37,263 nucleotides of DNA, from positions 1 to 37,263 of the IMG/VR virus record IMGVR_UViG_3300037882_001567; one strand, given 5' to 3'. Origin of the DNA: a virus. The notes under the pieces are model-generated. The model worked only from the letters and a program-made list of their open reading frames with translations, was not told where the DNA came from and ran no database searches. Below are positions 25,294-36,554 of the stretch, piece after piece (position 1 is the first letter of the stretch; each line of letters begins with the position of its first letter). The position numbers and the translations under genes are program-made.

Positions 25294-25363
25294 TGACCTA
25301 ACGTGTCACACGAAGAAAATACGTATGTTCACTATTGCGAAACAACGAAGTTGCCGATATACT
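25294..25363 (+). promoter_or_regulatory. upstream element A plus promoter
   Basis: TGACCTAACGTGTCA (25294-25308) with AAAATAC 22 bases after its start, then TTGCGA (25335-25340), 17-base spacer, TATACT (25358-25363). The element ends 27 bases before the -35 box. The same element and spacing occur at 26364 and 28842. It has a TGAC/GTCA dyad typical of a regulator site, probably an activator because of its position. Confidence 0.65.
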
Positions 25364-26050: not shown

Positions 26051-26261
26051 AATATCTCGTTTCACTCGTTTTGCTTTACATTTTCCTTACAACTCTAATC
26101 GCGGTAGGTCTCTGGCGTATCTGATTATCGTTAAGGGCGTGATTTGCCACCGTGTTGACAGCTTCGCGGCAGAGTTGGAACTATACAATAGTTCAGGCGA
26201 GGCCGATTCCGAAGTTTTCAAAATAAACCCGGATAAAACCTTTAGCAAAGTATTGCCCTAA
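26047..26261 (+). pseudogene. small exported protein interrupted by a frameshift
   Basis: The ATG at 26047, coupled to the previous stop (ATGA), opens a hydrophobic leader MKYLVSLVLLYIFLTTLIAV that ends at a TGA at 26122. The -1 frame from about 26118 continues with YLIIVKGVICHRVDSFAAELELYN...KTFSKVLP to 26261 without its own start. Together they read as one small secreted or membrane protein with a single frame error near 26105-26124. No classical slippery heptamer is seen. It could also be a 25-aa membrane peptide followed by a non-coding remnant. Confidence 0.5.
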
Positions 26262-26337
26262 GTGCTTAGCCTGTAAGGCTTTAGGGCCGGCGGGGCCCGC
26301 GCGCGCGTCGTAAGTCCTTATGGCGTAAGGAGTTACG
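26259..26337 (+). repeat. three-hairpin intergenic repeat, copy 1
   Basis: Starts with the stop codon of the upstream frame. Arm 1 is AGCC-TGTAA-GGCT within AGTGCTTAGCC; the middle is a GC block with GGCGGGGCCCGC; arm 3 is TAAGTCCTTA / TAAGGAGTTA around TGGCG. Eight such copies lie between 26,259 and 34,812. Confidence 0.85.
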
Positions 26338-26363
26338 TCTAACATTGGCCGGTGCAGCCCGCG

Positions 26364-26433
26364 TGACCAAACGTGTCAAACCGCTAAAATACAGGCGTTC
26401 ACTATTGCGGAACTGCGAAACAACCGATATAGT
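26364..26433 (+). promoter_or_regulatory. upstream element B plus promoter
   Basis: TGACCAAACGTGTCA (26364-26378), AAAATAC, then GTTCACTATTGCGG shared with element A; -35 TTGCGG (26405-26410), 17-base spacer, -10 TATAGT (26428-26433). Drives the 115-aa gene at 26470. Confidence 0.65.
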
Positions 26434-26469
26434 ATATACATACGACACGCTTAACAAAGGGATTCAATC

Positions 26470-26817
26470 ATGGCTTTCGCAAACGTAACCGTCCTTAACA
26501 TTTCCGAGTTTGTTCGCACGAATTTTCACACGCCCAAGGCGGTTGACGAAGTCTTTGAATGCATCGAAATGCAAACGAGCGACGGCTATCGTCTGCGGAA
26601 TTTCACCCGCCAGGGCAGCGAGTTTTCGCGGGCGGTCAAGGTGGATGAATCGTTCCCGCTATCCTACACGGTCAAGGAAAAGCGAACCTGCCCGGAAACC
26701 GGCATGGCTTACACGGCGGTTACGTTTTGCTCCAAAGGTCAGACCAAAGCGGCTATCGCCGTTGAAAAGAAGGCCGCAAAGATTCTGGCACGAAATCGGA
26801 AACTGGGGCTTGCGTAG
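26470..26817 (+). CDS. 115-aa hypothetical protein
   Basis: MAFANVTVLNISEFVRTNFHTPKAVDEVFECIEMQTSDG... with a basic, Ala/Lys-rich C-terminal helix (AAIAVEKKAAKILARNRKLGLA, quoted as VEKKAAKILARNRKLG). AAGGGA stands 7 bases before the ATG. The shape is that of a small nucleic-acid-binding protein; no family recognised. Confidence 0.65.
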   Translation: MAFANVTVLNISEFVRTNFHTPKAVDEVFECIEMQTSDGYRLRNFTRQGSEFSRAVKVDESFPLSYTVKEKRTCPETGMAYTAVTFCSKGQTKAAIAVEKKAAKILARNRKLGLA

Positions 26818-26838
26818 ACCGCCAACTGGCGGTATACT
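26810..26838 (+). promoter_or_regulatory. sigma70-like promoter
   Basis: TTGCGT (26810-26815), 17-base spacer with a CCGCCAACTGGCGG dyad, TATACT (26833-26838). It starts inside the end of the 115-aa gene and reads into the zinc-ribbon gene. Confidence 0.6.
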
Positions 26839-26872
26839 AGTCTTATTCAACCGCTTACCAATGGAGTTGAAA

Positions 26873-27133
26873 ATGATGACCGAGCAACAGCTATACGACC
26901 TACACCGCCACTATAGCTACAATTGCTTGTCGTGGGAACATTTTCTATTGCTCATTTCAACCCGCGAACTAGGCCATGAATCGTATGCGGTTGAGTGCTA
27001 TGAATGCGGGGAATTCATTTTGCCCGAACTAGGCGCTTCACACCGTTGCAATTGTGGTAATCGTCGCTGCTATATGCAATATAGTGAACCAAACAAGCTA
27101 AATCCAGGGTTTTTCTACGCGGCAGTTGATTAA
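26873..27133 (+). CDS. 86-aa zinc-ribbon-like protein
   Basis: MMTEQQLYDLHRHYSYNCLSWEHFLLLISTRELGHESYAVECYECGEFIL...HRCNCGNRRC. The pairs CYEC and CNCGNRRC can bind one zinc ion. GGAG lies 6 bases before the ATG at 26873. The tRNA-like RNA at 27134 begins on the base after its stop codon, so the two are on one transcript. Confidence 0.6.
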   Translation: MMTEQQLYDLHRHYSYNCLSWEHFLLLISTRELGHESYAVECYECGEFILPELGASHRCNCGNRRCYMQYSEPNKLNPGFFYAAVD

Positions 27134-27212
27134 GGGCCTGTGAGGGTTCGACCCACTGTAAAGCCGTACACGGAAACAGTAGGGCATCCGGGTTCAATTC
27201 CCGGCAGGTCCA
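27134..27212 (+). ncRNA. tRNA-like/tmRNA-end-like structured RNA
   Basis: 7-bp acceptor-like stem GGGCCTG/CAGGTCC, discriminator A, canonical T-arm CCGGG-TTCAATT-CCCGG. No D-arm or anticodon arm; instead GGG-TTCGA-CCC near the 5' end (compare the GGNTTCGAC of tmRNA D-loops) and a single hairpin ACTGT...ACAGT enclosing CCG-TACA-CGG. It looks like the tRNA-like domain of a tmRNA with only a mini-hairpin in place of the long mRNA part. The pairing is read directly; any charging by a synthetase is inference. Confidence 0.6.
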
Positions 27213-27231
27213 CTGATACTGCGTATCTTAA

Positions 27232-27342
27232 GGTGAAACTATGCCACCGTGAACTGTGAGCGGCGGGAATGAAAGCTTGCAACCGAGAGCTAGGCGGAAT
27301 GCAAGCGAAGCCGAAAGCCTAGCTACTGACTAAAATCTCACC
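27232..27342 (+). ncRNA. pseudoknotted structured RNA
   Basis: Outer pair GGTGA/TCACC. Inside lies a perfect H-type pseudoknot: stem 1 GCTTGC (27275) with GCAAGC (27301), stem 2 AGCTAGGC (27288) with GCCTAGCT (27317), loops of 7, 5 and 10 bases. No ORF. It lies between the tRNA-like RNA and repeat copy 2. I cannot match it to a known ribozyme or riboswitch. Confidence 0.65.
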
Positions 27343-27422
27343 CTAAACCCTTACGCCGTATGGACTTACGGCGTTCGCGGGGGCCCCGCCGAGCGTAAGT
27401 CGTTGGTACATAAGGACTTAGA
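27343..27422 (+). repeat. three-hairpin intergenic repeat, copy 2
   Basis: Arm 1 CGCCGTA/TACGGCG, central GCGGGGGCCCCGC, arm 3 TAAGTCGTTG/ATAAGGACTTA. Followed by GACCAAAGGTGTCGCAGCAAG, a relative of the upstream regulatory elements. Confidence 0.85.
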
Positions 27423-27483
27423 GCTACGCTCCCGGACCAAAGGTGTCGCAGCAAGAAAATAGCACAATTATAAAGGGCGGGCC

Positions 27484-27511
27484 TTGACAGGGGCGGGGGC
27501 CAGTGTATAAT
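27484..27511 (+). promoter_or_regulatory. strong sigma70 promoter
   Basis: TTGACA (27484-27489), 16-base GC-rich spacer, TATAAT (27506-27511). The predicted first base, A27518, is the first base of the helix of the RNA below. Confidence 0.85.
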
Positions 27512-27517
27512 GCGTAC

Positions 27518-27646
27518 ATGGCAAAAGGGGATTGAAAAGGCGGGTTTGACGGCGAGATAGACGGTTCGACTCCGTAGTTTCACAACCGCAAGTGATTTAC
27601 TCCCGCTATACAATCTCTGGGCATATCAACACCCTGCCATATTTTT
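27518..27646 (+). ncRNA. structured leader/RNA with T-arm-like hairpin
   Basis: Starts at the predicted start base with ATGGCA, which pairs with TGCCAT (27635-27640) just before ATTTTTATC. The first ATG gives only a 5-codon frame. Inside lie GCGGG/CCCGC and a T-arm-like ACGG-TTCGACT-CCGT followed by GTTTCAC. It may end at the T-rich stretch or act as the 5' leader of the 49-aa gene. Confidence 0.5.
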
Positions 27647-27673
27647 ATCATTTCCCTTTTAAGGTTCTTACCC

Positions 27674-27823
27674 ATGAACACGATTCTCAAGATTGGTTCG
27701 ACCATTGTGTACTGCACCCACTCGTTTAAGGTGGTGGCATTCACCAAAGAGGGGGTTGTCATCAGCAACCACCAGCGTACCATTACCATTACCCGCGAGC
27801 AGGCCCTCGCCTGTTCCAACTAA
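27674..27823 (+). CDS. 49-aa protein
   Basis: MNTILKIGSTIVYCTHSFKVVAFTKEGVVISNHQRTITITREQALACSN. A short beta-barrel-like peptide (SH3-like look), no recognised family. AAGG lies 9 bases before the ATG and the gene directly follows the structured RNA. Confidence 0.55.
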   Translation: MNTILKIGSTIVYCTHSFKVVAFTKEGVVISNHQRTITITREQALACSN

Positions 27824-27852
27824 ACTAGGCCCATAAGCCGCCTGTAGCCAGA

Positions 27853-27866
27853 AGAACGCGAGTTTA
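27853..27866 (+). repeat. AGAACGCGAGTTTA, variant of the AGCACGCGAGTTTT motif
   Basis: One of four copies (also 31051, 34980, 36021). Here it lies 5-18 bases before the ATG of the 57-aa gene and could supply the GAG of its ribosome site. In the others it ends a structured, non-coding stretch. Confidence 0.5.
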
Positions 27867-27870
27867 TACC

Positions 27871-28044
27871 ATGTTGCAATATACCGTATCGGAAAAGGTG
27901 GAAATCACCAAGGGCGAACTAATCACAATCAAGAACCTCGTCGATGCGAAGTTGTGGGAAGAGCGTCAGGACATCAACAAGAACAGTTGGCCGGCTCAAG
28001 AGCTTGCGAAGCTTTTGGAAAAACTTGAGAAAATCCTGAAATAG
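27871..28044 (+). CDS. 57-aa charged helical protein
   Basis: MLQYTVSEKVEITKGELITIKNLVDAKLWEERQDINKNSWPAQELAKLLEKLEKILK, mostly helical with a Leu/Lys amphipathic end. Preceded by the AGAACGCGAG motif. Function unknown. Confidence 0.55.
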   Translation: MLQYTVSEKVEITKGELITIKNLVDAKLWEERQDINKNSWPAQELAKLLEKLEKILK

Positions 28045-28048
28045 GCCA

Positions 28049-28077
28049 TTGACATAGAGGGGCTTTTGCCCTATAAT
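28049..28077 (+). promoter_or_regulatory. strong sigma70 promoter
   Basis: TTGACA (28049-28054), 17-base spacer with GGGGC-TTTT-GCCC dyad, TATAAT (28072-28077). Expected first base A28084. The transcript runs through three structured RNAs to the 83-aa gene. Confidence 0.85.
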
Positions 28078-28083
28078 ACATCC

Positions 28084-28168
28084 ATCGAAACAACAATCTA
28101 AGGGTTGACGGTGACTGCGGGTAGACCCTGAAAAGTCTAGCGAGGTCAAGTGGAACCGTAAAATATAC
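28084..28168 (+). ncRNA. structured 5' RNA domain of the 28,084 transcript
   Basis: After an unpaired A-rich start, GGTTGAC (28103) pairs with GTCAA...AACC (28145-28157), enclosing GACT/AGTC and GGG-TAGA-CCC. A separate hairpin CCGTA-AAATA-TACGG follows and runs into the tRNA-like element. No ORF. Confidence 0.5.
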
Positions 28169-28327
28169 GGCCCCCTAGCTTAATTGGTTAAAGCAGCAGA
28201 GCTACTACTCTGTTCCAGAAGTGCGGTCACTATTACACGTCGGCTTAGTCACCGACCAATGTAGGTGGACGCATGGAGGCATCAACTAGACTGGTTGATG
28301 ATGCCAGTTCGATTCTGGCGGGGGTCT
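28169..28327 (+). ncRNA. tRNA-like RNA with canonical ends and an expanded core
   Basis: 159 nt. Acceptor GGCCCCC/GGGGGTC, then TA, a textbook D-arm GCTT-AATTGGTTA-AAGC, and a textbook T-arm GCCAG-TTCGATT-CTGGC. Between them, instead of one anticodon arm, are CAGAG-CTACTA-CTCTG (6-base loop), a long interrupted hairpin from TGCG (28222) to CGCA (28273) with inner GTCGG/CCGAC, and CATCAAC-TAGACTG-GTTGATG (loop lacks U33). No standard anticodon loop fits. It could be a tRNA with an insertion or a dedicated tRNA mimic. Confidence 0.65.
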
Positions 28328-28328
28328 G

Positions 28329-28407
28329 CTTACACTGTAGGTCGAAAGACCGAACAACGAGGCGTCAGTCCACGCCTACAACCCCCGAAAGGGGGAGAGT
28401 GTGTAAG
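28329..28407 (+). ncRNA. 79-nt cloverleaf RNA with GAAA tetraloops
   Basis: A perfect 7-bp closing stem CTTACAC/GTGTAAG encloses three perfect hairpins: GGTC-GAAA-GACC, GGCGT-CAGTCC-ACGCC and CCCCC-GAAA-GGGGG. Size, 7-bp stem and 4/5/5-bp arms copy a tRNA cloverleaf, but the loops are GNRA tetraloops and there is no T-loop or anticodon. Confidence 0.75.
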
Positions 28408-28443
28408 GGACAAGACAACCACCATTCCTTAAGGACGAAGTCC

Positions 28444-28695
28444 ATGTATTACTGTGCAAATTCCAAAGTTGGTCAAGCTATCCACCCGGCCATCTGGATG
28501 ATTGTTTACTATTTCGTGGAGCGGCAAATCCCTATGGGTAAGCTGCATATTATCAATCTGGCCCGCAAAACAGCGGAAGCGACCGGGGCAAACAGCGAGG
28601 AAACTTCGCTTATAATGGTTAAGCAATTTGTTGAACATGTGGCGAACGAACACGCTTACAAGTTTGACGCAAAGCCTGCCCAGGTAACGACTTAG
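28444..28695 (+). CDS. 83-aa hypothetical protein
   Basis: MYYCANSKVGQAIHPAIWMIVYYFVERQIPMGKLHIINLARKTAEATGANSEE..., helical, small, no recognised family. AAGGA lies 8 bases before the ATG at 28444; longer frames upstream run through the structured RNAs and are rejected. The long structured leader makes post-transcriptional control plausible. The stop codon lies inside repeat copy 3. Confidence 0.6.
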   Translation: MYYCANSKVGQAIHPAIWMIVYYFVERQIPMGKLHIINLARKTAEATGANSEETSLIMVKQFVEHVANEHAYKFDAKPAQVTT

Positions 28696-28748
28696 GGCGG
28701 GCGGGGCCGCCCCGCGAAGCCTAAACCCTTATGGCATAAGCACTTACG
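28692..28748 (+). repeat. three-hairpin intergenic repeat, copy 3 (arm 1 missing)
   Basis: Central GCGGGGCCGCCCCGC and arm 3 TAAACCCTTA/ATAAGCACTTA are present; the first hairpin is missing because the coding region ends at the boundary. Confidence 0.8.
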
Positions 28749-28754
28749 TCAATC

Positions 28755-28840
28755 TTCCCGAACGGGAATATGGGGCTTGTTTTCGGCTGCGTAACGTGGT
28801 ATAATGGCCGGATTGTGTCCGATTATTCCCGATAGGGAAT
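28755..28840 (+). promoter_or_regulatory. promoter flanked by two operator-like palindromes
   Basis: Palindrome 1 is TTCCCG-AA-CGGGAA (28755-28768), palindrome 2 ATTCCC-GATA-GGGAAT (28825-28840), both followed by TATG-like bases. Between them lie TTGTTT (28777), a 17-base spacer and TATAAT (28800-28805). This looks like a repressor-controlled promoter; the second site is downstream of the start. Confidence 0.55.
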
Positions 28841-28841
28841 A

Positions 28842-28909
28842 TGACCAGACGTGTCAAACCCCAAAATACATCTGTACAGTATAGACACGCCGCACGAATC
28901 TGCTAGAAT
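28842..28909 (+). promoter_or_regulatory. upstream element C plus promoter
   Basis: TGACCAGACGTGTCA (28842-28856), AAAATAC, then TAGACA (28882-28887), 16-base spacer, TAGAAT (28904-28909). Same element-to-promoter distance as in copies A and B. Confidence 0.6.
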
Positions 28910-28948
28910 CCTATTATTGAGTTAAGGCCACTTACTAAGGATTGCCAA

Positions 28949-29368
28949 ATGAACATTTCGCTCGAATCGCGTTTCTCCGATGTTGAACTTTTCCAGATGT
29001 TCGACCTTGATATTGGCTCTTGCATGATTGCCCAGGGGCACAAGGCGAATGACCCTGCCCTAGTGAACAAGGGTCAACGTGTTCAGTCGAGTTTGCTTGT
29101 TTATCGCAATCGCAATCGGGCAGGCGACAACGTGCAAGCTGACGCGAAAACCAACTATCGCAAGTTGATGGGACACCCCGGCACGTTCAGCATTGAAATT
29201 GACAAATCGGGCAAGGGTGAACATAAAGTCAATATGCAGAAAACAGGCATCGGTTGTGACAAGGCTTTTCGGGCGAGTCGCGTAGCATCGCTGGCGGCAG
29301 CCTACGCAGAGAACACCGTGAGCGAAGTATCCCCTTTTGATGTCGGCTTTGCCGACTTCGGAGAATAG
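28949..29368 (+). CDS. 139-aa hypothetical protein
   Basis: MNISLESRFSDVELFQMFDLDIGSCMIAQGHKANDPALVNKGQRVQSSLLVYRNRNRAG... with a central HPGTFSIEIDKSGKGEHKVNMQ beta segment. Soluble; no motif I can name. AAGGA lies 7 bases before the ATG. It is controlled by element C and possibly by the flanked operators. It overlaps nothing, and the next gene starts 1 base after its stop. Confidence 0.65.
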   Translation: MNISLESRFSDVELFQMFDLDIGSCMIAQGHKANDPALVNKGQRVQSSLLVYRNRNRAGDNVQADAKTNYRKLMGHPGTFSIEIDKSGKGEHKVNMQKTGIGCDKAFRASRVASLAAAYAENTVSEVSPFDVGFADFGE

Positions 29369-29369
29369 A

Positions 29370-29669
29370 ATGAGCGAAGCGAACTACGATTTTCGGGCGT
29401 ATTATGACCAGTGGTGCAGCGAGAAAACGGGGCTGCCAAAATACCCCGTTGCTACAATTTGGTATCTATTCCAAGATAGCATTCGACACACTGAATTGAT
29501 TGCCACTGTTTCGGCGGCGGTCAATCGGTTGTGCATGATGAATTTGGAGCCGACCGGCTACAATGTAAATACGTACACTGACCACCTGCGACCTGACAAT
29601 TGTTCAGTAGCTCGCTGGCGGAACATTCTGAAATTGGTCATGCGTGAGGGAATGCCAGAGGCTCTCTAA
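29370..29669 (+). CDS. 99-aa hypothetical protein
   Basis: MSEANYDFRAYYDQWCSEKTGLPKYPVATIWYLFQDS... is helical, with no recognised family. GGAG stands 6 bases before the ATG at 29370. Its stop codon is the first part of repeat copy 4. Confidence 0.6.
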   Translation: MSEANYDFRAYYDQWCSEKTGLPKYPVATIWYLFQDSIRHTELIATVSAAVNRLCMMNLEPTGYNVNTYTDHLRPDNCSVARWRNILKLVMREGMPEAL

Positions 29670-29744
29670 GTCCTTTGTGCGTAAGCACTTAGGACACGGG
29701 GGGCGGCCCCGCGAGACGTAAGTGTATATGGCATAAGGACTTAG
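29666..29744 (+). repeat. three-hairpin intergenic repeat, copy 4
   Basis: Arm 1 is GTCCT..GTGC-GTAA-GCAC..AGGAC with a GNRA loop; centre GGGGCGGCCCCGC; arm 3 TAAGTG.../...GGACTTA. Copy 6 changes GTGC/GCAC to GTGT/ACAC, a compensatory change. Confidence 0.85.
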
Positions 29745-29773
29745 GCGATTTCGATAAACTTTGATTTTGCGCC

Positions 29774-29802
29774 TTGACCGTGGGCAACGCTCACGGTATA
29801 CT
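29774..29802 (+). promoter_or_regulatory. sigma70 promoter
   Basis: TTGACC (29774-29779), 17-base spacer with CCGTG/CACGG dyad, TATACT (29797-29802); reads into the phosphoribosyltransferase gene. Confidence 0.75.
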
Positions 29803-29832
29803 TGGGGAGTCAACTTAACCCGGAGCCATCAT

Positions 29833-30288
29833 ATGTCGCGGCATTCAAGCTATCTTAGTCACATTTTCGGCAGCGTCAACGAGTTGGAAAACACCGTTGC
29901 CTATACCGTGAAACAAGCGTCAAAAAAGCGATTTGATGCTATCGCTGTACGGGGTGTTTCAGGCATTACTATCGGTAGCATCGTGGCGTATGCCATGAAG
30001 AAGCCGCTGGTGGTGGTTCGTAAACCAAAAGATGGGTCGCACGGCGAATGCAAAGCCGAAGGATTGCCGAACGGCCCCTGCACCTATTTGGTGATTGATG
30101 ATTTCATTTCGAGCGGTCATACTGTCGCCAGCATCGTGCAAGAGATTCACGACGAATCGGAAGGGGAGGCCGAGCTTGTAGGCTCCATCGAAACCCGCGA
30201 AGGCCATCGCGGATTCAAGTCGGCAAAGAGCTTGGCAAAATTTTACCGCTACGTTGATGAGGCTATTAAGGGACAATATCAGCCCTAA
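29833..30288 (+). CDS. phosphoribosyltransferase
   Basis: 151 aa, type I PRTase fold. The PRPP loop is YLVIDDFISSGHTVAS (residues ~93-108) with the paired Asp; GVSGITIGSIVAYAM is the usual pyrophosphate-loop region and LVVVRKPKDGSHG the next strand. The ATG at 29833 has GGAG 7 bases upstream. It transfers a base to or from PRPP (purine or orotate type); the base cannot be told from sequence. A nucleotide-salvage or base-modification role is likely. Confidence 0.85.
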   Translation: MSRHSSYLSHIFGSVNELENTVAYTVKQASKKRFDAIAVRGVSGITIGSIVAYAMKKPLVVVRKPKDGSHGECKAEGLPNGPCTYLVIDDFISSGHTVASIVQEIHDESEGEAELVGSIETREGHRGFKSAKSLAKFYRYVDEAIKGQYQP

Positions 30289-30385
30289 CACTTACATCCT
30301 GATATTCAATCTCGATTGTAAATTGCTTCGCACTTACGCAGCCGAAAAGAGGTAGAACCAACAGCAAGAGGGAAAATTTCAGCAT
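30266..30385 (-). CDS. 39-aa lipoprotein on the opposite strand
   Basis: MLKFSLLLLVLPLFGC then a 23-residue alternating beta-like tail ending VRADIVP. Lys in the n-region, a Leu-rich core and LFGC lipobox make a complete lipoprotein signal. It lies antisense to the last 23 bases of the phosphoribosyltransferase gene. The ribosome site is weak (GGTG). It may be an outer-membrane lysis or superinfection-exclusion factor. Moderate confidence because it is short. Confidence 0.5.
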   Translation of the reverse strand: MLKFSLLLLVLPLFGCVSAKQFTIEIEYQDVSVRADIVP

Positions 30386-30400
30386 TTTTCACCGTAGGGG

Positions 30401-30428
30401 TTGACAGTGTGAAACTCTATGGTATAGT
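30401..30428 (+). promoter_or_regulatory. sigma70 promoter
   Basis: TTGACA (30401-30406), 16-base spacer, TATAGT (30423-30428), before the acidic-protein gene. Confidence 0.75.
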
Positions 30429-30469
30429 ATCGGTACGAAAGCCACTCACCTTTAGTTCAGGAAAACAAA

Positions 30470-30679
30470 ATGATTGATTACACCCACGACTACAATCCCC
30501 ATGACGACGGCGAAGCGGACGAGTTGGACACGTTCGACGTGGAAGATGACAGCCAGGACAACTGGGAAGCGGACGAGGACGATTATGACGGACAGCCAGA
30601 CGAGTACACCGAGTGGCAGGACTTGCACGGCGGCGACGACTGGGACCACGGACAATATGACAACGGCGACGACTACTAA
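30470..30679 (+). CDS. extremely acidic 69-aa protein, candidate DNA mimic
   Basis: MIDYTHDYNPHDDGEADELD... About half the residues are Asp or Glu, mixed with Tyr, Trp, Gly and His, and almost no Lys or Arg. Such composition is seen in phage DNA-mimic inhibitors (Ocr-like) of restriction enzymes and nucleoid proteins. AGGA lies 7 bases before the ATG, and it has its own strong promoter. Overlaps the next gene by 23 bases in another frame. The inhibitor role is inference from composition. Confidence 0.65.
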   Translation: MIDYTHDYNPHDDGEADELDTFDVEDDSQDNWEADEDDYDGQPDEYTEWQDLHGGDDWDHGQYDNGDDY

Positions 30680-30824
30680 GACCGTCGCGGTCTGTTCGCT
30701 GTGCGGCCAGCCTATTACGCCCGTTGTTTATACGGGCAAGCCGCCGCGTGTTTACCACTGGGATTGTGCGTATAAGGATTGCGAGGACATCCGCAATCAA
30801 CTAGCAGCGAACGCTAAGTGCTGA
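30657..30824 (+). CDS. 55-aa zinc-finger-like protein
   Basis: MTTATTTKTVAVCSLCGQPITPVVYTGKPPRVYHWDCAYKDCEDIRNQLA... The CSLC and HWDC...C spacing fits a one-zinc knuckle. Starts inside the acidic gene; a GGA lies 4 bases upstream. Its TGA stop is inside repeat copy 5. Confidence 0.6.
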   Translation: MTTATTTKTVAVCSLCGQPITPVVYTGKPPRVYHWDCAYKDCEDIRNQLAANAKC

Positions 30825-30892
30825 GCCTGTAAGGGTTTACGCTCGGCGGGGCCGCCCCGGCCACCCTAACTCTTTACTGCGTAAGGACTTAG
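30814..30892 (+). repeat. three-hairpin intergenic repeat, copy 5
   Basis: AGTGCTGAGCC-TGTAA-GGGTTTACGCTC, then CGGCGGGGCCGCCCCGG, then TAACTCTTTA/GTAAGGACTTA. The next promoter starts 10 bases later. Confidence 0.85.
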
Positions 30893-30901
30893 AGCGAGCT
30901 A

Positions 30902-30929
30902 TTGACACTGGGGCTATCTGTGCTATAAT
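30902..30929 (+). promoter_or_regulatory. strong sigma70 promoter
   Basis: TTGACA (30902-30907), 16-base spacer, TATAAT (30924-30929); predicted first base A30936. Confidence 0.85.
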
Positions 30930-30935
30930 GGTGGT

Positions 30936-31065
30936 ATGAGCTGACGGCTAATGGTCAGACCTATCAGAGCATACATTCTGGAAAGAGTGTATGTCCTCAT
31001 GGGCCTAACCGTTTCTTTTAATATAGCCCCGTAGCCACCCACTGCCAGTAAGCACGCGAGTTTTT
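30936..31065 (+). ncRNA. three-way-junction RNA ending in AGCACGCGAGTTTTT
   Basis: The predicted first bases ATGAG pair with CTCAT (30996-31000), enclosing CTGAC-GGCTAATG-GTCAG and CATACATTCT-GGAA-AGAGTGTATG (10 bp, GNRA loop). The 8-base loop GGCTAATG could pair with TAGCC further down (31024 or 31032), forming a pseudoknot. The stretch ends with AGCACGCGAGTTTTT. No ORF longer than two codons starts at the first ATG. Confidence 0.7.
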
Positions 31066-31086
31066 CAAATTCTGTGCAGAATTCTG

Positions 31087-31115
31087 TTGCTTTAAGCCGC
31101 CAGCCGTGGTAAAAT
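31087..31115 (+). promoter_or_regulatory. promoter placing the start at ATG
   Basis: TTGCTT (31087-31092), 17-base spacer, TAAAAT (31110-31115); A of ATG is the seventh base after the box. The same -35 hexamer and spacing serve the paralogous gene at 33194. Confidence 0.7.
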
Positions 31116-31121
31116 ACGACC

Positions 31122-31706
31122 ATGAAAAGCAAACTATCGCGTAAGCCTGTCGCCCACAACAAAGCAATCCGCCGCTGGTTGAAATGTGTCAGCGGCTCCG
31201 GTGTTGACGCCATGTATAGTGACGTTAGCAAACACTGGGGATTTAAGTGGTATATGTGTCAGGGAAAATGCACCCAGACCTATACCGTGCAATACATGGC
31301 AGCAGAACAAGATTGTGGTCCAAAGGTCGGACCTCTTGTTAAGTTTTACATAAAGGAACGCCCGCGATACGGATACCTGACTCAAAGGGCTACTTCGCTT
31401 AGTAAAGTATTCAAAACGTGGAATGTTGATTGGTATTTTGATACTGACGGATACGAAGGGAAGTGCCAACAGCTTGCCGATATGGGTTGCCCCAATTTTT
31501 GGAAGTTTGCAGCGAGTTGCGGCTTTGAAGTTCGGGATATGCATATGGGTAACATCGGCTACCTCACCACCACCGGACGGGGGGTAGTGATTGATTTCGG
31601 GCACTGGTATGAAACCAATGCTTGTGACCGATACAAGGTACTCTATCGTAAGTTTGAGGAAAGTTATCAGGATGGTGGTGTTGTGAAACCACCGAAATGG
31701 TTCTAA
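31122..31706 (+). CDS. small kinase-like (PKL-fold) protein, paralogue 1
   Basis: 194 aa. The C-terminal half has a kinase/aminoglycoside-phosphotransferase catalytic loop DMHMGNIGYL (Asp139, His141, Asn144) and a metal-binding VIDFGHW (Asp158). An N-terminal SKHWGFKWY offers a candidate Lys. The whole is about 60 residues shorter than a minimal kinase, so the N-lobe is reduced. The paralogue is at 33194-33766. Probably leaderless. Targets may be host proteins or small molecules; unknown. Confidence 0.65.
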   Translation: MKSKLSRKPVAHNKAIRRWLKCVSGSGVDAMYSDVSKHWGFKWYMCQGKCTQTYTVQYMAAEQDCGPKVGPLVKFYIKERPRYGYLTQRATSLSKVFKTWNVDWYFDTDGYEGKCQQLADMGCPNFWKFAASCGFEVRDMHMGNIGYLTTTGRGVVIDFGHWYETNACDRYKVLYRKFEESYQDGGVVKPPKWF

Positions 31707-31709
31707 GCT

Positions 31710-31788
31710 CTAAGTCCTTTGTGTGTAAACACTTAGGACGAGCGGGGCGGCCCCGCGAGCCATAAGTCTATACGGCACAAGCACTTAC
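31710..31788 (+). repeat. three-hairpin intergenic repeat, copy 6
   Basis: Arm 1 GTCCT..GTGT-GTAA-ACAC..AGGAC, centre GCGGGGCGGCCCCGC, arm 3 TAAGTCTATA/CAAGCACTTA. Compensatory changes against copy 4 support RNA structure. Confidence 0.85.
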
Positions 31789-31817
31789 AGCAATTCTCAA
31801 TATTTTAGACGTGGCTC

Positions 31818-31845
31818 TTGACACTGGCGGGAACCGTGCTATAAT
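31818..31845 (+). promoter_or_regulatory. strong sigma70 promoter
   Basis: TTGACA (31818-31823), 16-base spacer, TATAAT (31840-31845); drives the Gp88-like gene with a short leader. Confidence 0.85.
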
Positions 31846-31871
31846 CGTGACATAACCCAAAGGAAACCACG

Positions 31872-32585
31872 ATGAACCAATTCGGATTCTGCAATCTGTT
31901 GACCCCTGGACTTGCGAACGCTAAAATCGCCAAGGGTGAGGGTGGTGAATATCTGACCACTATCATGCACTTGTCGCCGCATAAGGCGAGCGGCGTTGGC
32001 AATGTTTGCCCGATGGCATCGCCTGGATGTATTGCGGCCTGTCTCAATACGGCTGGCCGTGGTATCTATGACAATGTGCAACTTGCCCGCAAAAATCGCA
32101 CCGTATTGTTTTTCGAGAATCGCCCGAAATTTCTCGAATTGCTCCGCGATGAGATGCACGCTCACAAGCGTAAAGCTATCCGCGAAGGCAAATTGGCTTG
32201 TTACCGATTAAACGGCACAAGCGACATCGTTTGGGAAAAACTGGCTCCCGAACTGTTTACGGAATTTTCGGATTGTCAATTTTACGACTATACGAAATAT
32301 CCGAAGCGTTGCCTATCGTCATATAAGCTACCCGCCAACTATCATTTGACGTTTAGCAAATCGGAAGAAAATCTGGCCGATTGCAAGCGTGTCCTACGCT
32401 CTGGTAAGTGTAACGTCGCGGTCGTTTTCAAGGGGCAACCCCCCGCCAAGTATCTAGGTCGTGAAACCTATACGATGGACGAAAACGACTTGCGTTTCCT
32501 CGACCCCCCTGGTGGTTGTATCGGGGCACTCACAGCGAAGGGTAAAGCGAAGCATGACAAATCCGGGTTCGTCGTCCTACAATAG
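31872..32585 (+). CDS. Gp88-like phage protein
   Basis: 237 aa. The Cys-rich motif VCPMASPGCIAACLNTAGRG and the RLNGTSDIVWEKLAPELF block are hallmarks of the actinophage gene-88 family as I remember it, also found in other phages and mobile elements; its function is unknown. AGGA stands 7 bases before the ATG. Cys residues could bind a metal or Fe-S cluster. Confidence 0.75.
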   Translation: MNQFGFCNLLTPGLANAKIAKGEGGEYLTTIMHLSPHKASGVGNVCPMASPGCIAACLNTAGRGIYDNVQLARKNRTVLFFENRPKFLELLRDEMHAHKRKAIREGKLACYRLNGTSDIVWEKLAPELFTEFSDCQFYDYTKYPKRCLSSYKLPANYHLTFSKSEENLADCKRVLRSGKCNVAVVFKGQPPAKYLGRETYTMDENDLRFLDPPGGCIGALTAKGKAKHDKSGFVVLQ

Positions 32586-32775
32586 GGCGACATACGGCGA
32601 GCTACTCGATTATCTCTTGGAGCTTGCAGAAATCAATGACCCCCGTTTGGGGGATACCATCGTCGTTCAAACCATCGACGGCGATACTTTTCCGGCTGAA
32701 TTCCTAGAATTCGGCGGGGATGAAATTAGAGAAGATGGGCAAATTGTACTCTTGTGTAAGGAATGGAACGAATGA
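32551..32775 (+). CDS. 74-aa acidic hypothetical protein
   Basis: MTNPGSSSYNRATYGELLDYLLELAEINDPRLGDTIVVQTIDGDTFPAEFLEF... begins 35 bases inside the end of the Gp88-like gene. Acidic alpha/beta small protein, no family recognised. Its TGA overlaps the next ATG. Confidence 0.6.
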   Translation, partial: SMTNPGSSSYNRATYGELLDYLLELAEINDPRLGDTIVVQTIDGDTFPAEFLEFGGDEIREDGQIVLLCKEWNE

Positions 32776-33029
32776 ATCAAGTGGAAATTCTGCAAAAGGT
32801 GGCGGCTGGTGAATTGACTGCGGCAGAAGCTGCGGCTATGTTCGACGCGGCCCCTGCTCGTGGCCTGAGCTATAAGGTCAGCGAAAAGGGAGCGTTATCC
32901 GTCTATGGGGTGGGTCGCTTCCCCCTGACGGCCTATTTGCAAACGTGGGAGAAACTCGACAGCGACGAGGAACGCGGGCGGCGCGCTGCCTTTATTGAGG
33001 CGAATCGTGCCAAATTTTCGGTCAAGTAA
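32772..33029 (+). CDS. 85-aa hypothetical protein
   Basis: MNQVEILQKVAAGELTAAEAAAMFDA is a short helical hairpin, then LSYKVSEKGALSVYGVGRFPLTAYLQTWEKL, a pattern I have seen in proteins of phages and other mobile elements but cannot name. Start at 32772 (ATGA overlap, AAGGA upstream); an in-frame ATG at 32763 is the alternative. Confidence 0.65.
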   Translation: MNQVEILQKVAAGELTAAEAAAMFDAAPARGLSYKVSEKGALSVYGVGRFPLTAYLQTWEKLDSDEERGRRAAFIEANRAKFSVK

Positions 33030-33050
33030 AATTGTCGGTCGTGTGCAGTC

Positions 33051-33128
33051 CTAAGTGCTGACCCCGTAAGGGGTTACGCACGGCGGGGCCGCCCCGCGTG
33101 AGCTAAGTGCTTTAGTGCCAAGGACTTA
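33051..33128 (+). repeat. three-hairpin intergenic repeat, copy 7
   Basis: Arm 1 GTGC..CCCC-GTAA-GGGG..GCAC, centre GGCGGGGCCGCCCCGC, arm 3 TAAGTGCTTT/CAAGGACTTA. Confidence 0.85.
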
Positions 33129-33158
33129 CAACTTTCTGTCGTTTTTATGACTTTCCGC

Positions 33159-33187
33159 TTGCTTCTGCTGTCCTACTGTGGTAGAAT
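33159..33187 (+). promoter_or_regulatory. promoter placing the start at ATG
   Basis: TTGCTT (33159-33164), 17-base spacer, TAGAAT (33182-33187), ATG at the seventh base after. Confidence 0.7.
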
Positions 33188-33193
33188 GCCACT

Positions 33194-33766
33194 ATGAAAC
33201 TCAAGCAACGCATCGTTGAACGGATTTACAAGGGCGTGCTAGACGGCAAGAAAGATACCTCTAGCGGGTGCTGTGCTAGATTTATACGCCTCAGCAAACA
33301 TTGGGGATTCAAGTGGTATGCTAGTCTAAGGGATTGCTTACAGACCCATGAAATGCAGTCGCGGGCACACAAGCAAGGGTGGGCACCAGCACTAGGCAAC
33401 ATCGTTAGCTTTCGTGGGAGATATAAGGGGGATAATGAATACGGCTACGCCGTTCAATATGCCACCACCTGGAAAGCATACCACGGAATCGACCCCTCTG
33501 TTAGGTGGTGTGATGGCGATTTTATGATGGACGAAGATAGGAATAGCCTAGACTTTGACTATTATAGCTTGCCAGATTTTCACGAGCTATCCGACCAATG
33601 CGGATTCACAGGCCACGATTTTCATTATCAGAATGTCGCCTATCTGGCCGATGATACGGTCGTTGTCATCGACTTTTCGGAATGCCGCTTTAATGATGGT
33701 ACGACCATTGCAAGGCTGGAAGAAAAATTGCATCGCCACTTGACACAACGTGGTTCGGTGCTATAA
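33194..33766 (+). CDS. small kinase-like (PKL-fold) protein, paralogue 2
   Basis: 190 aa. Shares SKHWGFKWY, an xQTxxxQ...A segment and YGYAVQYATT with paralogue 1. The catalytic loop reads GHDFHYQNVAYL (Asp142, His144, Asn147) and the metal site VVVIDFSEC (Asp160). The usual Gly of DFG is Ser. Probably leaderless, with the same -35 hexamer as paralogue 1. The two copies bracket the Gp88-like cassette. Confidence 0.65.
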   Translation: MKLKQRIVERIYKGVLDGKKDTSSGCCARFIRLSKHWGFKWYASLRDCLQTHEMQSRAHKQGWAPALGNIVSFRGRYKGDNEYGYAVQYATTWKAYHGIDPSVRWCDGDFMMDEDRNSLDFDYYSLPDFHELSDQCGFTGHDFHYQNVAYLADDTVVVIDFSECRFNDGTTIARLEEKLHRHLTQRGSVL

Positions 33767-33767
33767 T
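33740..33767 (+). promoter_or_regulatory. strong sigma70 promoter
   Basis: TTGACA (33740-33745), 16-base spacer, TATAAT (33762-33767), overlapping the end of the kinase-like gene; drives the HTH gene. Confidence 0.8.
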
Positions 33768-33817
33768 ACAGAAGTTGAAGTTTTCAAGTTAACCCCTTTA
33801 TTTTGGAGAGTGAACGA

Positions 33818-34135
33818 ATGAGTGAAGTGAATGCGGTTGAGGGTGCGGCTGTTGTGGCATTCGAGGATATGCCGGAAGGCCAGAAGCTCGCATTGTTTGT
33901 GCGAACGAATGAGCAAGTAGCGGCTGACGGTGGCGGGCAGCAAGATATTGCTGACGCTCTCGGCATCGACGTGAAGCGTGTGAGCCAGTTGCGGCAACGC
34001 TTGACCAATAAGAAGGGTGCGTATGGCCGTCAAGGTTTCACGCTCACCCCGCTTGCCAAGGGTCGCAAGACTGACGTTGCCAGCTTGCAAGCCATCGTCG
34101 CGGAAATTCGCGGTGCTGCGAAGGTGGAAGCCTAA
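33818..34135 (+). CDS. putative HTH regulator
   Basis: 105 aa. The central QQDIADALGIDVKRVSQLRQRL is a helix-turn-helix, and the basic RKTDVASLQAIVAEIRGAAK follows. GGAG lies 9 bases before the ATG at 33818. It is a candidate for the regulator of the TGACCNNACGTGTCA elements, but nothing in the sequence links them directly. Confidence 0.6.
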   Translation: MSEVNAVEGAAVVAFEDMPEGQKLALFVRTNEQVAADGGGQQDIADALGIDVKRVSQLRQRLTNKKGAYGRQGFTLTPLAKGRKTDVASLQAIVAEIRGAAKVEA

Positions 34136-34136
34136 A

Positions 34137-34211
34137 TTGGGCTTCGGCACAGTCTTAACGGCTGTCGCGGTTCTGTTCGTGTTGTATTTAATCTGTCAGC
34201 CCCCTCGTTGA
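34137..34211 (+). CDS. possible 24-aa membrane peptide (TTG start)
   Basis: TTG, then GFGTVLTAVAVLFVLYLICQPPR, a single helix of the length needed to span the membrane. GGAAG lies upstream. The stop is inside the terminator. Short size makes it uncertain. Confidence 0.3.
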   Translation: MGFGTVLTAVAVLFVLYLICQPPR

Positions 34212-34220
34212 GGGGGTTTC
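34200..34220 (+). terminator. rho-independent terminator
   Basis: CCCCCTC-GTT-GAGGGGG followed by TTTC; 7-bp perfect GC-rich stem, about 65 bases after the HTH gene. Confidence 0.8.
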
Positions 34221-34221
34221 T

Positions 34222-34333
34222 GGGGCCTCATGGCGAGCTATTAGAGTTAAACTTAGCTAAGGGTTGAGACAAGGCTTTGCAAAGCTCTGTCGATACTAAA
34301 CAACAATAGAGCCGTTCAATTCGGCGGGTTCCA
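34222..34333 (+). ncRNA. tRNA-like RNA with unusual core
   Basis: GGGGCCT (34222) pairs with GGGTTCC (34326) over 7 positions, three of them G-U; discriminator A. T-arm-like GCCG-TTCAATT-CGGC precedes the 3' strand. The core has AGCTA/TAGCT and GACA/TGTC with GCTTTGCAAAGC, not D or anticodon arms. Same end pattern (TCCACTG) as the RNA at 27134. It sits directly before the SD of the 78-aa gene. Confidence 0.5.
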
Positions 34334-34345
34334 CTGGAGAAACTA

Positions 34346-34582
34346 ATGCGTAACATTAACGAGATTGCCGGCGAGATTCGGAAGGATTGGAAGAAACCTT
34401 ATTTCGGTGCTGTTCCCTATCTTGACGCGATGGATTGTCTGGATAGTATCAGCGACAATTACGGCTATGATAGTGGCCGCAGCATCGTCGTATATTTCCT
34501 GGCTAATGCTAACGGGTGGAAGGGTGAGACGGCACGCCGCGTTAAGGCCGAGTTGAAGACTCTAGCGGGCCTAAAGAAGTAG
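34346..34582 (+). CDS. 78-aa hypothetical protein
   Basis: MRNINEIAGEIRKDWKKPYFGAVPYLDAMDCLDSISDNYGYDSGRSIVVYFLANANGWKGETARRVKAELK... Small alpha-helical protein, GGAG 6 bases before the ATG. No domain I can name with confidence. Its mRNA continues into a multi-armed RNA. Confidence 0.65.
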   Translation: MRNINEIAGEIRKDWKKPYFGAVPYLDAMDCLDSISDNYGYDSGRSIVVYFLANANGWKGETARRVKAELKTLAGLKK

Positions 34583-34586
34583 CAAC

Positions 34587-34730
34587 AACACGGTGTTAGA
34601 CTGGTGACAATAGAGAACGGGAAAGTTGAGCGGTTAATCGCAACTCAGATTCCAGAGCGGAATACAACTCAACGCGGAGTCTTAAACTAGGTATCCTTCA
34701 CGGGAGACTCTCACTCTATTTCCGTGTTTT
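34587..34730 (+). ncRNA. multi-armed structured RNA
   Basis: The closing pair AACACGG/CCGTGTT (34587-34593 with 34722-34728) is followed by TTTTC. Inside: AGTTG/CAACT with GCG-GTTAAT-CG, ATTCC-AGAGC-GGAAT, and GAGTCT/AGACTC. No ORF. It could be a 3' untranslated RNA of the 78-aa gene with terminator function, or a processed RNA. Confidence 0.55.
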
Positions 34731-34731
34731 C

Positions 34732-34812
34732 TTAAACCCTTATGCCGTAACGCTTTGCGTGCGGCGGGGCCGGCCCCGCGTGCCGTAAACCCTTTCGTAC
34801 CAAGGACTTAGA
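34732..34812 (+). repeat. three-hairpin intergenic repeat, copy 8
   Basis: Arm 1 GCCGTAACGC/GCGTGCGGC, centre GCGGGGCCGGCCCCGC, arm 3 TAAACCCTTT/CAAGGACTTA. Half copies follow near 34,822, 34,873 and 34,998. Confidence 0.8.
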
Positions 34813-34840
34813 GCAACTCGCCGTAAACCCAGGTGGGGTA

Positions 34841-34869
34841 TAGACTTAGGGCGATGGTTGTGGTATAAT
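34841..34869 (+). promoter_or_regulatory. sigma70-like promoter
   Basis: TAGACT (34841-34846), 17-base spacer, TATAAT (34864-34869); the weak -35 lowers confidence. Confidence 0.55.
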
Positions 34870-34875
34870 GACGTA

Positions 34876-34995
34876 AGTGGTTGAGGGCAAAGGACTTACG
34901 ACGAGAGGGATGCTATGGACCGGCTACCCCTCTGTAGGGTGTTACAACTAAACTCCCCCGGTGGGTGGCTGTAGGGATTAGCACGCGAGTTTTTT
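34876..34995 (+). ncRNA. structured RNA ending in AGCACGCGAGTTTTTT
   Basis: Contains AGAGGG/CCCTCT and CCCCCGG/GTGGG pairing and the GGTGGGTGGCTGTAG segment, ending with AGCACGCGAGTTTTTT. The same end occurs at 31051 and 36021. No coding frame. Right after its end the next promoter begins. Confidence 0.5.
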
Positions 34996-35010: not shown

Positions 35011-35038
35011 TTGACTTTACGGCATTTGGTGTTATAAT
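35011..35038 (+). promoter_or_regulatory. strong sigma70 promoter
   Basis: TTGACT (35011-35016), 16-base spacer, TATAAT (35033-35038); predicted first base A35045. Confidence 0.8.
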
Positions 35039-35044
35039 GGTCTT

Positions 35045-35126
35045 ACCAGTGGTGGTGCTGCCGGAACATGGGATTTACCCCCGGTGAATCGAGGATTAAC
35101 GCTACTCGCCCCACTGGTTTTCTTTT
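35045..35126 (+). ncRNA. ~80-nt independent ncRNA with own promoter and terminator
   Basis: First predicted bases ACCAGTGG pair perfectly with CCACTGGT (35111-35118), followed by TTTTCTTTT. Inside are CCGG..GGG-ATTTA-CCC..CCGG and CGAG-GATTAACGCTA-CTCG. Promoter, first base, helix and T-run fit a complete small RNA gene. Confidence 0.7.
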
Positions 35127-35186
35127 AACAGTAGTCAGGCCCAACGTAGGGTCTTTGAGTTTTTGTGACGCAGCAAGAAAAGTGCA

Positions 35187-35465
35187 ATGAAAACTGAGTC
35201 CTACATTGAAGGGTATGAGACTGCCCTGCGTGGTGAGGGTATGAGGGCCCAGGAAAAGCTGTGGTATGATGAGCGGGAATACCACCTGTATAAAGCCGGT
35301 CATAAAGACGGGCGGGGCGACTGGGTAGAGTGCTACTCTGATGGCCGCTATTCTGTCATTAATGGTGAAGCAATCCGCCGAGAGGGGGATTTCCCCGAAG
35401 GTGTCCTATTCTATGCCTATCTCAAAGGCAGACTGGATGAGTTGAATGAGACCGACACAAAGTGA
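35187..35465 (+). CDS. 92-aa hypothetical protein
   Basis: MKTESYIEGYETALRGEGMRAQEKLWYDEREYHLYKAGHKDGRGDWVECYSDG... The repeated AL/AGHKDG-type helices are like small phage proteins of unknown function. Preceded by GTGACGCAGCAAGAAAAG (35165-35182), a motif also found at 27443 and 37005; no clear SD. Confidence 0.65.
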   Translation: MKTESYIEGYETALRGEGMRAQEKLWYDEREYHLYKAGHKDGRGDWVECYSDGRYSVINGEAIRREGDFPEGVLFYAYLKGRLDELNETDTK

Positions 35466-35976
35466 GTTGTGGGCTTTAGTCATCATTCTTATGGGTGCTA
35501 TTCTTACTGCGTCATCCCTGCTCAGGGCCGATGAGCGCCACCCAACGCCGGCTGAACCCGTGGTTGTAATGGGGCCTAATGACTTCGCCTATCTCGATGA
35601 CATTCCCCCACTTGAAATGCCACTAGTGGACCCAGCGGCAATGGACAATAGTGCCGAAGATATTATCAGGCATTATGCCCATACAGCCACCGAGGAAAAC
35701 CCGGCGGCATTCTACATCTTAGTGGACTATGAAAACGACGAGTACGACCGGACAGCGGGCCGGCTCTTAGCCCCAAGTAGTTTCTTGTCGCTACTGGGAT
35801 ACATAGTACCACAGAAACATAAGTACGTAGCCAGAGCCAAGAACGGGCACAAGCTCTTCGGGAAGTACCAGCTCTATAGATGGAGAGAGGGCGGGGCGCA
35901 CGAGTATTACATGCTCTACGTATCTAAGCGTCTTATCGACGGTAAATGGACTATCTCCTGGCGACTGACCTATTAG
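35446..35976 (+). CDS. 176-aa membrane-anchored or exported protein
   Basis: A hydrophobic segment at residues 8-26 (LWALVIILMGAILTASSLL) is followed by a Pro-rich linker and an acidic/basic soluble domain (FYILVDYENDEYDRTAGRLL...KYQLYRWREGG). It overlaps the upstream gene by 20 bases. The topology suggests anchoring with the domain in the periplasm. No family recognised. Confidence 0.6.
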   Translation: MRPTQSELWALVIILMGAILTASSLLRADERHPTPAEPVVVMGPNDFAYLDDIPPLEMPLVDPAAMDNSAEDIIRHYAHTATEENPAAFYILVDYENDEYDRTAGRLLAPSSFLSLLGYIVPQKHKYVARAKNGHKLFGKYQLYRWREGGAHEYYMLYVSKRLIDGKWTISWRLTY

Positions 35977-36240: not shown

Positions 36241-36245
36241 CTAAG

Positions 36246-36317
36246 TATCAGGGGTCGGAATCGAACCGACGTAGACAAGGTTATGAGCCTTGTTGGAGGG
36301 CCAACACTCTCCCTGGT
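36246..36317 (-). tRNA. tRNA-Met (CAT)
   Basis: Anticodon arm CAAGG-CTCATAA-CCTTG, T-arm GTCGG-TTCGATT-CCGAC, D stem GAG/CTC, acceptor ACCAGGG/CCCTGAT with one C-A mismatch, discriminator A. CCA is not encoded. CAT could also be a lysidine-type Ile tRNA. Confidence 0.88.
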
Positions 36318-36319
36318 AG

Positions 36320-36389
36320 TAGTCCTGGCAGGAATCGAACCTGCTATAGCACCTTATAAGAGTGCGTGTTGAACCAGCAACACAGGACC
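36320..36389 (-). tRNA. tRNA-Ile (TAT)
   Basis: Anticodon arm GCACT-CTTATAA-GGTGC, T-arm GCAGG-TTCGATT-CCTGC, acceptor GGTCCTG/CAGGACT, short D stem TTG/CAA. Reads ATA codons, rare in many bacteria. Confidence 0.85.
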
Positions 36390-36397
36390 ATATACGT

Positions 36398-36475
36398 GAG
36401 TGCGGGCCAGTGGCACAGATATGAGTACCAACCACACTCAACGCGGGTGATTAAGCCTTGGCTAAGGCATCCCGC
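36398..36475 (-). other. hairpins between tRNAs
   Basis: Two helices: GAGTGTG/CGCACTC (36398-36439) and GCGGG/CCCGC with inner GCCTT-AGCC-AAGGC (36443-36475). Neither has a T-arm or a usable anticodon loop. They may punctuate processing of the tRNA transcript. Confidence 0.5.
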
Positions 36476-36482
36476 TCGTAAG

Positions 36483-36554
36483 TAGCCAACAGAGGAATCG
36501 AACCCCTATCTCGGTGGTAGAAACACCGCGTCCTATCCGTTGAACGAGTCAGCC
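36483..36554 (-). tRNA. tRNA-Arg (TCT)
   Basis: Anticodon arm CGGTG-TTTCTAC-CACCG, D-arm GTTC-AACGGATA-GGAC, T-arm AGGGG-TTCGATT-CCTCT, acceptor GGCTGAC/GTTGGCT closed with several G-U pairs, discriminator A. Reads AGA. Confidence 0.87.

Follow-up and report, generated by a model that had tools for sequence, protein, structure and literature searches.

On balance, we favour the reading that a phage of virulent type carries a gene for a discrete noncoding RNA of about 80 nt. The candidate small RNA (RNA B, about 75-82 nt) occupies positions 35045-35126 on the plus strand of a virus record of 37,263 bases, the whole of which was analyzed and is referred to here as the window. RNA B was assessed through its promoter, its predicted fold and shuffle tests. 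A promoter (35011-35038), the predicted first base (35045), a perfect 8-bp helix (35045-35052 with 35111-35118) and a T-run (35118-35126) lie in register, and none of 200 shuffles reproduced this arrangement, which bears out the exact alignment claimed in a preliminary description of the sequence.

Results

The minus-strand half of the window carries packaging genes and other late-type genes (the latter assigned by position and relatives), and the small genes of the plus-strand half (about 21-36 kb) are of early type. Relatives of the terminase-like ORF at 14018-17209 (minus strand, 1063 aa) and of its neighbours share approximately 40-63% protein identity and are located on viral contigs that reach 157,712 and 150,336 bases; the window is therefore probably a piece of a larger phage genome. 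A search of the phage collection returned no DNA-level relative of the window, and we infer the virulent type of the phage from its gene content and relatives. The terminase-like ORF also contains a LAGLIDADG homing endonuclease segment at residues ~310-382, and, since this segment is missing in most relatives, an intein is likely. Three tRNA genes are present at 36245-36554 on the minus strand, 1.1 kb from RNA B and on the opposite strand to it. Divergent or interrupted tRNA-like genes can also be seen at 27134-27213 and 28169-28327, the second of which was read by ARAGORN with introns as a tRNA-Ser(act) with a 63-nt insert. The early proteins encoded at 31122-31706 and 33194-33766 are paralogues with 31% identity that have the motifs SKHWGFKWY and VVIDF in common; viral contigs contained no relative of the 33194 protein, and Pfam and PHROGs gave no match to it.

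RNA B is preceded by a sigma-70-type promoter with a TG extension (TTGACT-16-TATAAT, 35011-35038, plus strand), which matches the consensus at 11 of 12 positions in addition to the TG before the -10 element. Its predicted first base, 35045, lies 7 nt past the -10 element, so that RNA B has its own promoter at the right distance. Related promoters (family D4) occur at 30902, 31818 and 33740. Strong promoters are frequent in the 33-37 kb region (11 observed versus 4.3 expected), and the promoter of RNA B is therefore not notable by itself.

The 5' arm of the closing helix (ACCAGTGG, 35045-35052, plus strand) pairs with the 3' arm (CCACTGGT, 35111-35118, plus strand), which is its exact reverse complement. 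Pair probabilities of 0.72-1.0 were obtained at every pair of this helix, with the transcript ending at 35118, 35127 or 35167. The T-run (TTTTCTTTT, 35118-35126, plus strand), whose first T sits in the last pair of the helix, stands alone on the plus strand of 21-37 kb in having 8 or more T among 9 bases. The region is intergenic and has a GC content of 58%, compared with 46.5% across the window. The predicted fold energy of RNA B, -28.9 kcal/mol (z -2.5), is only moderately better than that of shuffled sequences, and three-way-junction alternatives for the interior range from -24.4 to -27.6 kcal/mol. A three-way junction drawn by hand lay ~4.5 kcal/mol above the minimum free energy structure and was rejected, and related three-way folds lay ~1.3 kcal/mol above it. 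Given these competing folds, the interior structure of RNA B is tentative, its closing helix alone being firm. The helix encloses a 58-nt loop, which is unusual for an intrinsic terminator, and the T-run is broken by one C. Another terminator-like hairpin (AGGCCC-AACGTA-GGGTCT followed by TTGAGTTTTT, 35137-35166, plus strand) is found 20 nt beyond the T-run, followed by two plus-strand ORFs of 92 and 176 aa (35187-35976) that have no family match.

We defined a strict combination of elements as a promoter with at least 11 of 12 consensus matches, a perfect 8-bp helix starting 4-13 nt past the -10 element, and at least 7 T in 9. The window holds a single instance of this combination, and 200 dinucleotide shuffles produced none. 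When the thresholds were relaxed to 10/7/6, it was present in 0.5% of shuffles, and at 9/7/6 in 9%. With the promoter held fixed, the helix and tail did not arise in any of 5000 shuffled versions of the 150 nt downstream.

A twin unit (30902-31020), located 4.1 kb upstream of RNA B, has the same layout and near-equal length. Its promoter (TTGACA-16-TATAAT, 30902-30929, plus strand) matches the consensus at 12 of 12 positions and carries a TG extension, and its candidate small RNA (RNA A, ~84 nt, 30936-31019, plus strand) is predicted to form a long imperfect hairpin (z -3.3) that runs into the 10-mer TTTCTTTTAA. The same 10-mer, which begins at 31012 in the tail of RNA A, directly follows the helix of RNA B (35119-35128, plus strand). 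These are its only two occurrences on the plus strand of the window, and at least two plus-strand copies were found in 0.5% of shuffles. The offset from the -35 element to the tail is 110 nt in the RNA A unit and 108 nt in the RNA B unit. Beyond the tail 10-mer the two RNAs have no common sequence, and the closing pairs of RNA A begin ~14 nt downstream of its predicted 5' end. We therefore regard the candidate RNAs as alike in layout, as judged from their sequences, with no homology implied. The twin favours the presence of two discrete small-RNA genes near the tRNA genes.

Copies of an intergenic hairpin repeat precede both the RNA A and the RNA B unit; one of them, with the order hairpin, GC palindrome, hairpin, lies at 34730-34815 on the plus strand (families D2 and D3). 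The repeat is ~80 nt long and is present in eight copies within 26256-34819, each composed of two TAAGTNCTT..AAGNACTTA hairpins that flank a GGGGCSGCCCC palindrome. It is often found immediately upstream of sigma-70 promoters and also occurs in loci L027 and L032, and the 157-kb relative carries related copies despite its otherwise diverged sequence. A third promoter (TAGACT-17-TATAAT, 34841-34869, plus strand) could give rise to a short transcript C (about 34876-34994), the fold of which is no better than those of shuffles (z 0.5). This possible transcript has a repeat hairpin at its start and ACGCGAGTTTTTT at its end, and its GTGGGTGGCT is complementary to AGCCACCCAC immediately past RNA A. 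The 10-mer ACGCGAGTTT can be found four times in the window (27856, 31054, 34983 and 36024), on the plus strand only and at places where genes or short units end, against an expected count of 0.03 per shuffled strand; it is possibly a terminator or processing signal. Another recurrent motif, GTGTCNNANNNNNAAAATA, occurs at 25303, 26373, 27443 and 28850 and in a weaker form at 35165, sometimes with GACC.AA before it, and is a possible phage-specific promoter or operator.

Homologues of RNA B were sought by several routes. An initial 19-mer pattern matched 11 viral contigs, only within unrelated repetitive coding-like sequence that does not represent RNA B, and two more specific viral-contig patterns and one GTDB pattern retrieved nothing beyond the window itself. 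A blastn search of phages and plasmids returned no homologue; a marginal plasmid match (33 nt, E 0.9) lay inside a coding gene and was dismissed. A single-sequence covariance model run on 43 loci and nine related records identified the window only. RNA B had no match in Rfam 15, either at the gathering score or at E values up to 10, and the sole hit at that threshold was a snoRNA model (E 4.2) at 35183-35200, outside RNA B. Among the surrounding genes, no relatives were found for the 176-aa gene at 35446 or the 190-aa gene at 33194. GP88 (31872) and the 78-aa gene at 34346 have many relatives, which occur without wider synteny and without RNA B; phage DSL-LC05 has only the 78-aa gene in common with the window. 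The nearest phages found share ~55% protein identity, a divergence across which an RNA of this size would scarcely be recognizable, and the negative searches therefore say little about the conservation of RNA B. As no homologue was found, there is also no covariation or conservation that would show selection on RNA B.

Candidate pairing partners within the phage were also considered. The best duplex of RNA B with phage mRNA starts had an energy of -56.1 kcal/mol, compared with a mean best of -53.6 kcal/mol for shuffled RNAs, which is not above chance and lends no support to RNA B being a cis antisense RNA of a phage gene. Pairing with tRNA T-arms was likewise rejected, the longest match to phage tRNAs not exceeding chance (51% of shuffles). 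The T-loop complement GAATCGA/GATTCGA occurred in 0.7% of shuffles; it was chosen after the fact and is therefore not used as evidence.

Discussion

We propose that host sigma-70 RNA polymerase would start transcription at ~35045, probably early in infection given that the promoter is near consensus. The ends of RNA B would pair in the 8-bp helix, and this helix together with the U4CU4 tract would act as an intrinsic terminator, giving a stable RNA whose 5' end is buried and whose 3' tail is short and U-rich. RNA A (30936-31019) would be another gene built in this way. Such RNAs would most likely act in trans during infection, either base-pairing to host RNAs or tying up an RNA-binding protein of the host. 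Both the transcription unit and the fold of RNA B are predictions from sequence, from which we infer its transcription, release at the T-run, stability and action in trans. The sequence is best read as the self-contained ~80-nt unit put forward in the preliminary description, a reading to which the twin at 30902-31020 adds support; weighing on the other side are the lack of homologues and covariation, a 40-codon frame that crosses the T-run, and an explanation of RNA B as a leader or attenuator.

That last explanation is the chief rival to a small-RNA gene and a serious one, to which we attach perhaps half the credence that would make it a toss-up. The transcript from 35045 would be the 5' leader of the genes at 35187-35976 and would stop at the tandem sites at 35118-35126 and 35137-35166 unless antitermination or refolding permits run-on, the small RNA being the product of the stopped leader. 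Two terminator-like sites do stand in tandem between the promoter and ORF 35187, the gap from the T-run to this ORF is 60 nt only, and no sigma-70-like promoter with at least 9 of 12 matches lies between RNA B and the ORF. RNA A, however, has the same unit build before unrelated downstream sequence, no Rfam riboswitch or attenuator was matched, and no obvious anti-terminator pairing can be seen, the closing helix persisting in the longer transcript. ORF 35187 may also have a non-sigma-70 promoter of its own, given that the GTGACGCAGCAAGAAAA motif at 35165 has copies at other sites (D14). The same stretch could instead be a short mRNA for a 40-codon ORF translationally coupled to the 92-aa gene, with the helix and T-run incidental. 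No complete ORF of more than 12 codons is confined to 35045-35126, and to this extent the absence of an ORF asserted in the preliminary description holds; it does not extend to the ATG frame that opens inside RNA B at 35068, remains open for 40 codons through the T-run and ends at 35190 (plus strand), where its stop codon and the start codon of the 92-aa ORF at 35187 overlap (ATGA). This frame is unlikely to be a gene, and the short-mRNA explanation as a whole appears improbable: there is no clear Shine-Dalgarno sequence upstream of 35068 (GGTGCTGCCGGAAC), the codon score of 0.047 per codon falls between coding and non-coding sequence (below 93% of real coding segments and exceeded by 15% of non-coding frames), such a frame would by our own estimate be open by chance about once in seven, and the coincidence of helix and T-run is left unexplained.

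Two further explanations carry still less weight. The end-to-end pairing and tRNA-like size noted in the preliminary description are borne out by the helix pair probabilities and by the ~74 nt between the helix ends, an acceptor-like arrangement that could suggest a tRNA gene that has decayed or diverged strongly. True tRNA genes lie 1.1 kb off on the other strand, and the first five bases of RNA B (ACCAG) are those of the nearby tRNA-Met. A tRNA identity itself finds no support: ARAGORN with relaxed thresholds or intron options is silent at RNA B, yet detects the divergent tRNAs at 27134 and 28169, and the Rfam tRNA model (RF00005) gave no match at E values up to 10. RNA B also has no TTCRA T-loop, no T-arm beside the 3' arm and no CCA, and is equipped with a promoter and T-run of its own. 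The tRNA reading is thus mostly refuted, and we consider it highly improbable. Promoter, helix and T-run could also have come together by chance in intergenic DNA that yields no discrete RNA, which would be in keeping with the lack of RNA B homologues and with the many promoter-like sites in the region. This explanation sits poorly with the failure of both the 200 window shuffles and the 5000 downstream shuffles to yield the arrangement and with the repetition of the layout by the twin unit, and we judge it very improbable indeed.

A discrete small-RNA gene, the reading that we prefer, fits a known kind of phage small RNA; the sequence of RNA B is new and its kind is not. Pseudomonas phage PAK_P3 produces two abundant ~100-nt RNAs of unknown function from neighbouring intergenic regions, one of them between tRNA genes, and according to its authors the only such RNAs previously described in virulent phages were the band C and D RNAs of phage T4, for which no function has been known since the 1970s (PMC4933390). 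Like RNA A and RNA B, the PAK_P3 RNAs (sRNA1 and sRNA2) are two small intergenic RNAs of a virulent phage located near tRNA genes, but they were detected by RNA-seq and are late, whereas RNA B is predicted and has a host-type promoter. The T4 band C and D RNAs are, like the predicted RNA B, small stable virulent-phage RNAs associated with tRNA genes. They are transcribed and processed together with the tRNA cluster, whereas RNA B has a promoter of its own and is encoded at a distance from the tRNA genes on the opposite strand. Lambda PreS (~88 nt), listed among phage small RNAs in a review (PMC12197685), is a phage RNA of similar size that acts in the lytic cycle. Its reported target is host dnaN, and we liken RNA B to PreS by size and kind, not by sequence.

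A more far-reaching proposal, which we regard as a long shot, is that RNA A and RNA B are founders of a new family of short phage RNAs, each transcribed independently, with the shared tail TTTCTTTTAA, situated behind a phage-specific hairpin repeat and influencing the RNA metabolism of the host in trans, for example through pairing of GAAUCGA in RNA B with UCGAUUC of the nearby tRNA T-arms.

Small RNAs of virulent phages have rarely been described, and the presence of two RNAs of like design in one phage makes the question of their function testable. If RNA B is merely a terminated leader, it would show how the phage controls the genes behind it.
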